A stretch of DNA of 14,771 nucleotides from an uncultured Aquincola sp. (GTDB lineage: Bacteria; Pseudomonadota; Gammaproteobacteria; Burkholderiales; Burkholderiaceae), in the NCBI GenBank assembly GCA_937883885.1, contig CAKZXL010000067.1:1-14771 (forward strand), in the 5' to 3' direction. The notes under the pieces were generated by a model. It saw nothing but the letters and a program-made list of their open reading frames with translations, ran no database searches and was not told where the DNA came from. The translations under genes and the position numbers were made by a program. Shown here piece by piece: positions 10,778-14,771 of this stretch (position 1 is its first letter; each line of letters opens with the position of its first letter).

Positions 10778-11784
10778 CGACGAGCCAGCCGGTGCGCTGG
10801 GGCATTCTCTCCACCGCCGGCATCGCGCTGCGGCGGGTGATCCCGGTGCTGCAGCAGAACCCGGCGCTGATGGAGGTGCGGGCCATCGCCTCGCGCCAGC
10901 AGGCTGCGGCCGAAGGCGCGGCGCAGGCACATGGCATTGCGCTGGCCTACGGCAGCTACGAGGCGCTGCTGGCCGACCCCGACATCGACGCCATCTACAA
11001 CCCGCTGCCGAACCACCTGCACGTGCCGCTGACGCTGGCAGCGCTGCAGGCCGGCAAGCATGTGCTGTGCGAAAAGCCGTTCGCGATGAACGCCGCCGAG
11101 CTGGCGGCGCTGCGGCCCTATGCCACGCAGCTGCACATCCGCGAAGCCTTCATGGTGCGCCACCACCCGCAATGGGCCGCCGTGCGCCGCGAGTTGCGCG
11201 CCGGCGCCCTGGGCACGCTGCGCTTCATGCAGGTGCCCTTCGGCTACTTCAACACCGATGCCGCCAATATCCGCAACCGGCCCGAGGCCGGCGGCGGCGC
11301 GCTTTACGACATCGGCTGCTATGCCGTGGCGGCGGCACGCTGGTGCTTCGAGCGTGAGCCGCTGCGCGTGGCCTGCAGCATCGACCGCGACGCCGACTTC
11401 GGCACCGACCGTCTGTGCAGCGCGCTGCTGGACTTTGGTGCCGAGGGGCAGATGGTGTTCAGCGTCAGCACCCAGGCCCACCGCTACCAGCGGCTGCACC
11501 TGGTGGGCACCCAGGGTCGGCTGGAGATGGAGATGCCCTTCAATGCGCCGCAGGGTGCGGCCAGCCGCTATTGGGTGGAAGACGCCAGCGGACTGCGCAC
11601 CATCGACCTGCCGCCCGCCGACCAGTACCTGCTGCAGATGGAAAGCTTCTCACGCGCGGTGCGGGAAGAAGCTCCCACCGCTGCCGGCCTGGACGAAGCC
11701 GAAGCCGGCATGCGGGTGATCGACGCGCTGTTCGCCTCGGCCGCCAGCGGGCGGTTCGAGGCGGTGAGACGACAAGCGGGTTAG
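10774..11784 (+). CDS. Gfo/Idh/MocA family NAD(P)-dependent oxidoreductase
   Basis: A 336-residue soluble dehydrogenase of the Gfo/Idh/MocA family, which oxidises or reduces sugars, cyclitols and related diols. The N-terminal Rossmann fold starts with WGILSTAGIALR, followed by IDAIYNPLPNHLH and the family signature EKP at 100-102 (HVLCEKPFAMN). The C-terminal alpha/beta domain contains GGGALYDIGCYAV, matching the conserved G-G-G-x-L-x-D-x-G-x-Y/H segment with the catalytic-region Asp. Two starts are possible: ATG 10774 (ATGA overlap with the ChrA stop, chosen here) or ATG 10768, two residues longer with GGGGG at 10756-10760. It closes the five-gene run. The TAG stop overlaps the purL stop tail to tail, leaving no room for a separate terminator. 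Substrate is not determinable. Confidence 0.9.
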   Translation: MTTSQPVRWGILSTAGIALRRVIPVLQQNPALMEVRAIASRQQAAAEGAAQAHGIALAYGSYEALLADPDIDAIYNPLPNHLHVPLTLAALQAGKHVLCEKPFAMNAAELAALRPYATQLHIREAFMVRHHPQWAAVRRELRAGALGTLRFMQVPFGYFNTDAANIRNRPEAGGGALYDIGCYAVAAARWCFEREPLRVACSIDRDADFGTDRLCSALLDFGAEGQMVFSVSTQAHRYQRLHLVGTQGRLEMEMPFNAPQGAASRYWVEDASGLRTIDLPPADQYLLQMESFSRAVREEAPTAAGLDEAEAGMRVIDALFASAASGRFEAVRRQAG

Positions 11785-14771
11785 CCCAACGCCCTGCGTG
11801 CGTTGTGGAACATCCGCAGCCACGGGCTGTGGGCCGACACATCTCCGGCGGCCCAGCTCATTTGCACGTTGCGGAACACGCGCTCGGGGTGGGGCATCAG
11901 CGCGGTGAAGCGGCCGTCGGCCGTGGTCACCGAGGTGAGGCCGCCCGGGCTGCCGTTGGGGTTGGCCGGGTAGGCTTCGGTCGGCTGGCCGCGATGGTCG
12001 ACGTAGCGCATCGCGCGCTGCACCCGCGCCGCGTCACCGCGCTGCGAGAAGTCGGCAAAGCCCTCGCCGTGCGACACGACGATGGGCAGGCGGCTGCCGG
12101 CCATGCCGGTGAAGAACACGCTGGGGCTTTGCAGCACTTCCACCATCGCCAGCCGCGCCTCGAACTGCTCGCTCTTGTTGCGGGTGAACTTGGGCCAGGC
12201 ATCGGCGCCCGGGATGATGGACGACAGCGCGGCCAGCATCTGACAGCCGTTGCACACGCCCAGCGCCAGCGTGTCGGTACGGCCGAAGAAGGCGGCAAAG
12301 GCCTCGGCCAGCTGCGGGTTGAACAGGATGGACCGCGCCCAGCCTTCACCCGCGCCCAGCGTGTCGCCGTAACTGAAGCCGCCGCAGGCCACGAAGCCCT
12401 GGAACTGGTCCAGCCGCGCGCGGCCGGCCTGCAGGTCGCTCATGTGCACGTCGAAGGTCTCGAAGCCGGCCAGCGACATCGCATACGCCATCTCGACGTG
12501 GCTGTTGACGCCCTGCTCGCGCAGGATGGCCATCTTCGGCTTGGCGCCGCCGATGCCCACCAGCGGCGCCATCTGCGTCACCGCTTCCTGCGGGTCGAAG
12601 CTCAGGTGCTGGTGCAGGCCGGTGTCGTCGGCCAGGCCGACGGCGGCATGCTCGGCATCGGCACAGGCCGGGTTGTCGCGCAGCCGCGCGATGCGCCAGC
12701 TCACCTCGTCCCACACCTGGTGCAGCTGCTGCAGCGGCGCGCTGTACACCGCCTTGGCGTCACGGTAGACCTCGACCACACCCTTGGTGTTGGGCTTGCC
12801 GATCACATGGCTGTGGCGGCTGAGGCCGTGGGCACGCAGCGTGGCCATCACCGCATCGCGGTCGGCCGTCTTCACCTGGACGACGGCGCCCAGCTCTTCG
12901 TTGAACAGCGCCTGCAGCGTCAGCTCGTTGCGGCGCTCGCCGACCTGGGTGGCCCAGTTCTTCGAGTCGCCGTATTCGGCGCGGCTGTCGCTGATGCCGT
13001 CGCTGTCGGTCACCAGCAGGTCCACGTTAAGGCTCACGCCCAGGTGGCCGGCGAAGGCCATCTCGCACACCGTGGCCCACAGGCCGCCGTCGCCGCGGTC
13101 GTGGTAGGCCAGCAGCTGGCCGGCGCTGCGCAGCGCGTTGATGGCCTGCACCAGCGCCTTCAGCTGCGCCGGATCGTCGAGGTCGGGCACCGCATCGCCG
13201 AACTGCTGCAGCGTCTGCGCCAGGATGGAGCCGCCCATGCGGCGCCGGCCCTGGCCGAGGTCGATCAGGATCAGCGTGGTGTCGCCGGCCTGCAGCTGCG
13301 GCGTCAGGGTGCCGCGCACGTCATCGAGCGTGACGAAGGCGGTGACCACCAGCGACACCGGTGCAACCACCTGTTTGGTTTCGCCGCCTTCGCTCCAGCG
13401 GGTGCGCATGGACAGCGAATCCTTGCCCACCGGCACGCCGATGCCCAGCGCCGGGCACAGCTCCAGGCCCACGGCCTTGACGGTGTCGTACAGCGCGGCG
13501 TCTTCGCCCGGCTCGCCGCAGGCGGCCATCCAGTTGCAGCTGAGCTTGACGCGCGGCAGGTCGATGGGCGCGGCCAGCAGGTTGGTGATGGACTCGGCCA
13601 CCGCCATGCGGCCCGAGGCCGGTGCGTCCAGCACCGCCAGCGGCGTGCGCTCGCCCATGGCCATGGCTTCGCCGCGGAAGCCGGCAAAGTCGGCCAGCGT
13701 CACCGCCACATCGGCCACCGGCACCTGCCAGGGACCCACCATCTGGTCGCGGTGGCTGAGGCCACCCACGCTGCGGTCGCCGATGGTGATGAGGAAGCGC
13801 TTGCTGGCCACCGTGGGGTGGCGCAACACGTCCAGCGCCGCCTGTTCCAGTGAGACGCCGGTGAGGTCCAGCGCCGCCTGCGTGCGCGGCAGGCGCTGGA
13901 CGTCGCGGTGCATCTTGGGCGGCTTACCCAGCAGCACGTCCATCGGCATGTCGATCACGCGCTCGCCGCCGGGGCCGTCTTCCAGCACCAGCTCACGGTC
14001 GCTGGTGGCCACGCCCACCACGGCGAAGGGGCAACGCTCGCGTGCGGCCATGGCCTCGAACAGCGGCAGGCCGGCCGGGTCGAGCGCGATGACGTAGCGC
14101 TCCTGGCTTTCGTTGCACCAGATTTCCTTGGGCGCCAGGCCGGTTTCTTCCAGCGGCACCTTGCGAAGGTCGAAGGTGGCGCCCTGGCCGGCGCCGTCCA
14201 CCAGCTCGGGGAAAGCATTGCTGATGCCGCCCGCACCCACGTCGTGGATGGCCAGGATGGGGTTGCCGCCGCCCCAGGCGGCGACGGGCCGCTCCCGAGC
14301 CGCCTGCGCCCCCTCGGGGGGCTCGGCCGACGTGTCGGCCTTGGGGGCACCAAGACTCCAGCAGTGGTTGATCACCTCCTGCGCACGCCGTTCGATCTCC
14401 GGATTGCCACGCTGCACCGAGTCGAAGTCGAGTGCCGCCACGTTGGTGCCAGCCGCCATCGAGCTGGCGGCGCCGCCGCCCATGCCGATGCGCATGCCGG
14501 GGCCGCCCAGCTGAATGAGCAGGGTGCCGGGGCCGAAAGGCAGCTTCTTGGTCTGGTCGGCGCGGATGGACCCCAGGCCGCCCGCGATCATGATGGGCTT
14601 GTGGTAGCCGCGCCGCTGGCCGTCCACCGTCTGCTCGAACACGCGGAAGTAGCCGCCCAGGTTGGGCCGGCCGAACTCGTTGTTGAACGCGGCGCCGCCC
14701 AGCGGGCCTTCGATCATGATGTCCAGCGCGCTGGCGATGTGCTCGGGCTTGCCGTAGGGCTGGCGCTCCCA
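11781..14771 (-). CDS. purL: Phosphoribosylformylglycinamidine synthase, single-chain (5' part beyond window)
   Basis: Large single-chain PurL (FGAM synthase), which makes formylglycinamidine ribonucleotide from FGAR, ATP and glutamine in purine synthesis. 996 residues are visible; compared with E. coli PurL (1295), about 325 N-terminal residues lie past the right edge. The frame is open to the edge (WERQPYGKPEHIASALDI), so the ATG at 14717 is internal. Visible parts are the rest of the first AIRS-like half (NNEFGRPNLGGYF, HDVGAGGISNAFPELV, WCNESQERYV), the second half (LITIGDRSVGG, MVGPWQVPVA, CNWMAACGEPGEDA, VPVGKDSLSM, AYHDRGDGGL, ALFNEELGAV) and a C-terminal glutamine amidotransferase with the nucleophile Cys in GVCNGCQM (codon 12254-12252) and the catalytic His-Glu in MPHPER. 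An unusual in-frame insertion occurs between CWSLG and NPILAIHD (see the repeat entry). The reading frame is otherwise intact. Confidence 0.97.
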   Translation of the reverse strand, partial: WERQPYGKPEHIASALDIMIEGPLGGAAFNNEFGRPNLGGYFRVFEQTVDGQRRGYHKPIMIAGGLGSIRADQTKKLPFGPGTLLIQLGGPGMRIGMGGGAASSMAAGTNVAALDFDSVQRGNPEIERRAQEVINHCWSLGAPKADTSAEPPEGAQAARERPVAAWGGGNPILAIHDVGAGGISNAFPELVDGAGQGATFDLRKVPLEETGLAPKEIWCNESQERYVIALDPAGLPLFEAMAARERCPFAVVGVATSDRELVLEDGPGGERVIDMPMDVLLGKPPKMHRDVQRLPRTQAALDLTGVSLEQAALDVLRHPTVASKRFLITIGDRSVGGLSHRDQMVGPWQVPVADVAVTLADFAGFRGEAMAMGERTPLAVLDAPASGRMAVAESITNLLAAPIDLPRVKLSCNWMAACGEPGEDAALYDTVKAVGLELCPALGIGVPVGKDSLSMRTRWSEGGETKQVVAPVSLVVTAFVTLDDVRGTLTPQLQAGDTTLILIDLGQGRRRMGGSILAQTLQQFGDAVPDLDDPAQLKALVQAINALRSAGQLLAYHDRGDGGLWATVCEMAFAGHLGVSLNVDLLVTDSDGISDSRAEYGDSKNWATQVGERRNELTLQALFNEELGAVVQVKTADRDAVMATLRAHGLSRHSHVIGKPNTKGVVEVYRDAKAVYSAPLQQLHQVWDEVSWRIARLRDNPACADAEHAAVGLADDTGLHQHLSFDPQEAVTQMAPLVGIGGAKPKMAILREQGVNSHVEMAYAMSLAGFETFDVHMSDLQAGRARLDQFQGFVACGGFSYGDTLGAGEGWARSILFNPQLAEAFAAFFGRTDTLALGVCNGCQMLAALSSIIPGADAWPKFTRNKSEQFEARLAMVEVLQSPSVFFTGMAGSRLPIVVSHGEGFADFSQRGDAARVQRAMRYVDHRGQPTEAYPANPNGSPGGLTSVTTADGRFTALMPHPERVFRNVQMSWAAGDVSAHSPWLRMFHNARRALG
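14265..14348 (-). repeat. In-frame palindrome-rich insertion element inside purL
   Basis: 84 bp (28 codons) separate the conserved PurL blocks CWSLG and NPILAIHDVGAGG, where E. coli has only two residues. The DNA is built of inverted repeats on the plus strand: GCCCCC (14308-14313) with GGGGGC (14317-14322); CCGAGC (14295-14300) with GCTCGG (14321-14326); and GGCCGAC (14325-14331) with GTCGGCC (14334-14340). The encoded peptide is Pro/Ala/Glu-rich and polar (for example SAEPPEGAQAARERP), as expected for a surface loop. A dispersed palindromic repeat that inserted without breaking the frame is the favoured explanation; a lineage-specific loop expansion is the alternative. Confidence 0.65.

Follow-up and report, generated by a model that had tools for sequence, protein, structure and literature searches.

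How a palindromic stretch of DNA comes to be read as part of a housekeeping enzyme is the question raised by a 14,771-nucleotide (nt) stretch of an uncultured Aquincola sp. (contig CAKZXL010000067.1; hereafter the window). The gene concerned is purL, encoding phosphoribosylformylglycinamidine synthase (11781..14771, minus strand), of which 996 amino acids are seen and whose 5' end lies beyond the window edge; its identity is indicated by domain and family matches (PF13507, PF22689, PF02769, NF003672 and TIGR01735) and by matches to the solved structures PDB 6jt9 and 1t3t. Between the conserved blocks CWSLG and NPILAIHDVGAGG lies the 28-residue segment APKADTSAEPPEGAQAARERPVAAWGGG (residues 142-169; 14265..14348, minus strand), which replaces two residues of relatives. 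The initial annotation had described these blocks as split by a palindromic element, and its coordinates proved exact; however, the 28 residues and 84 bp it gave as extra are the span of the segment, and the net insertion amounts to 26 amino acids or 78 bp, since relatives have two residues at the site. The corresponding sequence is HCWALGDANPIMAIHDVGAGG in PurL of G001, the nearest genome compared (WALG-DA-NP, within WALGDANPIM), and HCWALGDSNPIM in PurL of Aquincola tertiaricarbonis (L033; WALG-DS-NP). We consider it about 85% probable that a member of a dispersed structured repeat family was recently inserted, in frame, at a permissive helix-to-strand turn of PurL and gave rise to this segment.

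The identity of the inserted DNA follows the plan of a repeat family defined in another genome. A covariance model of length 74, built from 14 G001 copies with the window copy excluded, recovered a full-length copy (model positions 1-74) at 14274..14347 on the minus strand with 42.3 bits and an E-value of 2.6e-5; the only other listed match in the window reached 10.5 bits (E 1.5), leaving this copy as the sole strong one. The inverted repeats noted earlier in the segment were confirmed by folding of 14262-14352, which gave three hairpins and a closing stem at -61.3 kcal/mol versus a shuffled mean of -51.0 (z = -2.9; 1 of 200 shuffles equally good), and the model match is the more decisive evidence for the identity of the element. 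Read along the minus strand, the copy opens with the 5' motif CCCCCAAG (14340..14347), which 121 of the 149 copies analysed, including that of the window, have close to their 5' end. Hairpin 1, with a variable stem (14325..14340), is placed by the fold and the family alignments, as is the central palindrome around CCCCCCGAGGGGG (14308..14322), which codes for PPEG and whose helix, helix 3, is paired in 99.8% of alignment cells. Hairpin 2 (14275..14306), seen in the fold and in the covariation of helix 4, has the stem AGGCGGC/GCCGCCT and the loop TCGGGAGCGGCCCGTC, related to the family loop TTGGGGCGGCCCGGC. All hairpins of the PurL copy are intact in the fold.

Copies of the element are numerous in G001, a genome that has 38% of the window's sampled 31-letter words. 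With the proposed blastn comparison of the insert stretch, 46 G001 matches came out at E<=10, the best having an E-value of 3.6e-7, and the covariance model found at least 142 matches at E<=0.01 (150 candidates scored; a lower bound). Among 60 relatives, 29 genomes had model matches: 28 of 36 from the same family, a group of soil and water bacteria, versus 1 of 24 from other families. The copies share a plan: first CCCCCAAG, next a hairpin whose stem is variable, then the palindrome CCCCCCGAGGGGG followed by GC, and finally a second hairpin, in which the stem varies between copies and the loop stays close to TTGGGGCGGCCCGGC. A minority of the G001 copies diverge in their 5' half. These results support the view that the insert is a member of a dispersed palindromic repeat family of betaproteobacteria that has turned protein-coding in PurL.

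The structure of the element is conserved through compensatory change. In 105 copies from eleven genomes, aligned to the covariance model, each of the 9 pairs in the stem of the second hairpin (helix 4) had two-sided changes and 95% of its cells were paired; hairpin 1 was weaker (66-72% of cells paired). The covariation score of the whole structure was 0.481 versus 0.111 for shuffles and at most 0.070 for slid partners, a score biased in favour of the structure because the alignment was fitted to it; a MAFFT alignment of 14 copies agreed with this result (0.255 versus 0.091 for shuffles and at most 0.098 for slid partners). Moreover, where the loop motif was present (94 copies), 79 copies had a perfect stem of at least 6 bp, with 37 distinct heptamers in the stem. 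Such covarying stems show that base pairing, in RNA or in single-stranded DNA, is what the non-coding copies conserve. Pairing of CCCCCAAG with the hairpin-2 loop CTTGGGG in a pseudoknot was considered and rejected, as the loop is mostly unchanged in copies whose 5' motif is CCCCCACG. Comparison of the window and five G001 loci with Rfam gave no family at gathering score on the element, the sole match being a tRNA in L030, and a further comparison gave two chance-level matches far below gathering score. Two tandem arrays, each of three near-identical element copies, were also observed (L002:1477-1719, 84 nt apart, and L398:844-1070, 77 nt apart).

The placement of copies was examined in 148 G001 copies with enough flank (stretches L001-L030, L113-L142 and L172-L251; 5 more were dropped near stretch ends) and in the 46 best-scoring copies from ten other genomes, which are not a random sample. 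Coding frames were judged from codon usage around the copies, a frame test giving 172/172 on the training genes themselves. In G001, 144 of 148 copies were not spanned by a coding frame and four lay in frame within genes; in the other genomes, 4 of 46 read through genes. The gene upstream of the 144 non-coding copies was in sense orientation in 110, on the opposite strand in 5 and unclear in 29. In 88 of these 110 cases the sense gene's stop codon came 0-12 nt ahead of the element, and in 60 it came 5-7 nt ahead; the gene facing the other end of the element came within 0-12 nt in 20 of 70. Where both flanks were clear (n=80), the neighbouring genes were convergent for 51 copies, co-directional for 29 and divergent for none. 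In the other genomes, the upstream gene was sense for 34 copies and antisense for 6, with the stop 0-12 nt before the element in 26 of 34 but 5-7 nt before it in just 8. Since the short spacer from stop to element differs in sequence among copies, the repeat does not simply bring the stop codon with it. The family is mainly a post-stop non-coding element, of which coding copies form a small minority. The recurrence inside and outside genes on which the proposal of a mobile protein-coding family was based is seen in G001; mobility and mode of spread are what we infer.

Identified through Pfam and NCBIfam, the four genes that host coding copies in G001 encode an AMP-forming ligase (L180), a DUF1800 protein (L225), an ABC substrate-binding protein (L220) and histidine ammonia-lyase, HutH (L015). 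The ligase insert ELSAPKLAALAPPKGALSPLGRPGGT is a clean 26 residues without counterpart in 19 of 20 aligned homologues (20 of the 120 listed), and it is also found in one close relative, P0242. In HutH (L015:929-2569), an antisense-oriented copy lies between NPLVF and ISGGNFH, and residues 329-353 are unmatched in the solved structure 1gkm. A recognisable insert core was present at the same place in 89 of the best 120 HutH homologues (P0122-P0241; 115 of 120 loops parsed), which were picked by similarity to an insert-bearing query; the HutH site may be more widely occupied than the PurL site. Coding copies in other genomes fall in Fpg (L389:2-1411), UvrD (L413:2-1552), NosD (L412:2-1180) and a peptidase-like protein (L394:1-1701), all of which, like the DUF1800 and ABC copies, are assigned by frame and family match alone. 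Two of these hosts, Fpg and UvrD, are DNA repair enzymes. In-gene copies occur in both sense and antisense orientation, and the sense copies in PurL of the window and in the G001 ligase are read in the same frame (APK ... PP-E/K-G ... RP). Among the 148 G001 copies, each sense frame is open in 139-145 and each antisense frame in 109-115, the expectation for random sequence of 80% GC being 81%. With sense frames open almost throughout, a copy arriving in phase would simply be translated.

Over 966 aligned codons, purL of the window and that of G001 share 96.3% nucleotide identity, with nonsynonymous divergence (dN) of 0.010 and synonymous divergence (dS) of 0.126, and the insert accounts for 26 of the 30 gap positions; judged by dN/dS, the rest of PurL is under normal constraint. 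Relative to 6jt9 and 1t3t, the insert maps between query residues 141 and 167. An AlphaFold model of the 996-residue fragment was poor (mean predicted local distance difference test score, pLDDT, 58.8), and in it residues 141-168, with pLDDT below 50, form a coil that joins a helix (124-139) to a strand (172-177). The segment is probably tolerated at this turn and without a function of its own.

Similar inserts recur at the same PurL site in relatives. Among the best 120 of 7,997 proteins found with residues 110-200, inserts were present at the window's site in 40 (P0002-P0041), a few of them strongly diverged. Exactly 20 residues over the empty state were found in 33 of these 40, typically as AP-x-PPEG-x-GAASERPGAAPGD, and P0023 has two in-frame tandem units (APKTRDAGR...GGASG twice). 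The other 80 proteins were mostly empty, some having 8-9-residue Gly-rich or other extras. No palindromic insert was found in the 80 PurL loci of relatives examined, nor was the element present in any of 48 parsed PurL loops (50 loci, L252-L301) from a sample of 399 genomes of the family, 381 of which had a match. In the genus g118 (81 genomes), 75 genomes gave a match and four of these carry the insert; for the remaining 71, about 20 loops were inspected directly and the others were taken to be empty from match spans. Two of the g118 insert peptides are identical to those in Rubrivivax sp. proteins P0005 and P0033, and each of the four g118 insert genomes has 2 to 5 weaker dispersed relatives of the insert. 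As the sampling favours insert-bearing proteins, these PurL counts are not frequencies. Two other forms of loop expansion were also observed: Gly-rich extras of 7-11 residues (e.g., GTGDEGASGAG) at the same turn without the element in P0042, P0052 and others, and a different GERPSGS-type repeat, without PPEG, in P0043, P0044, P0114 and L275.

Such recurrence allows the history of the insert to be considered in several ways. It could have entered once in the common ancestor of the group and then been lost many times, which would suit the presence of similar peptides at the same site in about 40 PurL protein clusters and of an insert widely common to HutH relatives. However, the empty genes have the short loop, and for 24 of 42 insert rows the nearest row lacks the element. 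On a FastTree phylogeny of 206 PurL proteins (insert columns removed, identical and short-flank rows dropped, L306 and L308 absent), these 42 rows imply no fewer than 30 state changes, of which 19 are forced by well-supported branches. Insert similarity also fails to track PurL distance (Mantel r 0.14, p 0.12, n 34). The nearest PurL rows of the window are all empty, namely P0050 (99% identical), G001, P0049 and P0065, so the gain in its lineage is recent; the PurL comparison called for in the initial annotation to date the insertion was informative in this respect. An old ancestral insertion is therefore unlikely, and is already disfavoured for the window. Much less probable still is ordinary length variation of a tolerant loop, with palindromes arising as a by-product of GC-rich Pro, Ala, Gly and Glu codons. 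Other lineages do have Gly-rich extras at the same place without palindromes, and the folding z-score taken alone is modest (-2.9), but the same 74-nt plan occurs more than 140 times in G001, mostly outside genes, and its stems covary, so that this explanation is already contradicted by the multi-copy family. Rather than a single-copy element with the loop in all relatives lacking palindromic DNA, which had been named as the contrary outcome, 144 non-coding and 4 coding copies were found in G001 together with empty relatives, and the idea that a palindromic repeat became a segment of PurL is borne out by these observations.

A more serious alternative, to which we give slightly less than an even chance, is that no jump into purL of the window took place: an insert-bearing allele, comprising the insert and a few codons beside it, would have arrived from another genus by homologous recombination, and the body of the element would then have been converted by local copies. 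The derived left flank AGTCTTGGT (14349..14357, minus strand; codons S-L-G) is the same in the insert-bearing PurL gene of G449 in the genus g118 (L306) and differs in the near relatives of the window. The whole 18-mer AGTCTTGGTGCCCCCAAG is identical in the window and G449, the counterpart being GCGCTGGGTGATGCC in G001 and similar in other empty genes. The element does not generally include AGTCTTGG, since no consensus of this kind emerged from base counts before CCCCCAAG in 121 copies, and G001 had no match to the pattern AGTCTTGGNGCCCCC within one mismatch. Across 26 genomes, AGTCTTGGNGCCCCC was exact at two insert-bearing PurL genes alone and had one mismatch at the other two, with 8 further one-mismatch matches versus 15 for a reversed control pattern. 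Import is also consistent with NPIL in the window versus NPIM in its congeners that were read, and with the many state changes on the PurL tree. Against it, the window matches G001 at 86 of 90 positions over the 90 nt on either side of the insert, so that any imported tract must be very short, and hairpin 1 is present in the window insert but missing from the four g118 PurL inserts. The derived 5' flank common to inserts of different genera suggests that many of them probably stem from one allele, carried along by recombination or descent, and not from many separate jumps. On this evidence a common origin is probable for the PurL inserts, which would have passed from species to species in short recombination tracts and later swapped their body with local copies, a swap that fits the difference in hairpin 1; repeated insertion at the permissive turn is also possible.

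For the reading of the segment as a recent insertion of a dispersed repeat, several observations weigh on the other side. The copy counts come from relatives, chiefly G001, and not from the window's own genome, and neither a donor copy nor a moving enzyme was identified. A RAYT/Y1 (REP-associated tyrosine) transposase was rejected as the mover, since in ten genomes Y1 was not associated with the family: matches over the cut-off were found in G032, which has 41 element matches, and in G020 and G024, which have none, a match in G001 fell below the cut-off, and there was no Y1 match in G002 (26 element matches) or G013 (9). PurL loop length also varies in other lineages without palindromic DNA, five of the 80 loci (L078, L080, L092, L105 and L108) having 7-11 mostly Gly-rich extra residues and no palindrome. 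Mapping on PurL structures, which had been recommended, succeeded in locating the insert, but exposure of the loop is not established by so poor an AlphaFold model. Finally, with just 4 of the 148 G001 copies in frame, chance capture could suffice.

How the repeat might reach a protein can be outlined as follows. It normally lies directly downstream of genes, in sense orientation and a few bases past the stop codon, so that its hairpins would fall in 3' untranslated RNA; the placement of the non-coding copies suggests such an element, and 3'-end definition or mRNA stability is its presumed role. A copy landing in a gene in phase would be translated (AP-K/M ... PPEG ... RPG) and would survive when located in a tolerant loop. 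The PurL allele may also pass between species by recombination, in line with the AGTCTTGGT flank and the patchy distribution.

Several known systems resemble the family in part. The attC sites of integrons have RYYYAAC and GTTRRRY ends, keep their structure while the sequence varies and are placed right after a stop codon. The present element shares the conserved structure with free sequence and the post-stop site, but resides in ordinary chromosomal genes and has CCCCCAAG and CTTGGGG-type ends; no AAC/GTT ends were found, the 5' ends being of the CCCCCAAG type and CTTGGGG lying in the hairpin-2 loop. Rickettsia palindromic elements are protein-coding palindromes found in frame in conserved genes, as mentioned in PMC3733652, and the present repeat is similarly translated as an extra segment of conserved genes. 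The marks of protein-coding palindromic repeats were observed here, with palindromes in frame in the conserved open reading frames (ORFs) of PurL, the AMP-forming ligase and HutH and with multiple copies inside and outside the genes of one genome (G001, 4 coding and 144 non-coding). Unlike the Rickettsia elements as portrayed there, the family belongs to another lineage and its copies are mostly non-coding and post-stop (144/148 in G001). The same source describes GTAG/CGTC repetitive extragenic palindromic (REP) sequences as a 5' GTAG or CGTC tetranucleotide beside a 20-40 bp palindrome. They are high in copy number and mostly occupy intergenic sites, where the neighbouring genes are convergent or co-directional, and they lie near 3' ends; intragenic copies are described for several species, and two Xanthomonas have them at roughly matching positions in recB. 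Many copies, 3'-end placement between convergent or co-directional genes, some copies inside ORFs and same-site recurrence are common to both, and DNA repair genes are among REP hosts (PMC3733652), as UvrD and Fpg are for the present element. In contrast to REPs so described, the element spans 74 nt with three hairpins instead of 20-40 bp and has a free but covarying stem; it starts with CCCCCAAG, preceded by variable bases, rather than with either tetranucleotide.

Protein-coding palindromes are thus already known from Rickettsia elements and intragenic REPs. In the open-licence literature, no description of a three-hairpin covarying family, of tight post-stop spacing or of recurrent PurL and HutH sites was found; PMC2755013 was considered as an earlier description and set aside, its palindromic repeats being clustered regularly interspaced short palindromic repeats (CRISPR), and PMC2267715 was of no help either. 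More tentatively, and at somewhat longer odds than the import of an allele, structured RNA elements found across the family, with a free but covarying stem and mostly 5-7 nt past stops, might double as portable protein inserts that repeatedly enter the same PurL and HutH loops, the alleles then crossing species as very short recombination tracts; this would amount to a kind of mobile coding segment that lacks any splicing system. Dispersed palindromes tend to be dismissed as clutter between genes, whereas this family combines a precise post-stop position and a covarying structure with a record of becoming protein in PurL, HutH and the ligase, and probably in Fpg, UvrD and NosD. It allows tests of the spread and placement of repeats and of the frequency with which bacterial proteins acquire repeat-derived segments, and such inserts can lead to errors when housekeeping genes of a large bacterial family are annotated or aligned.

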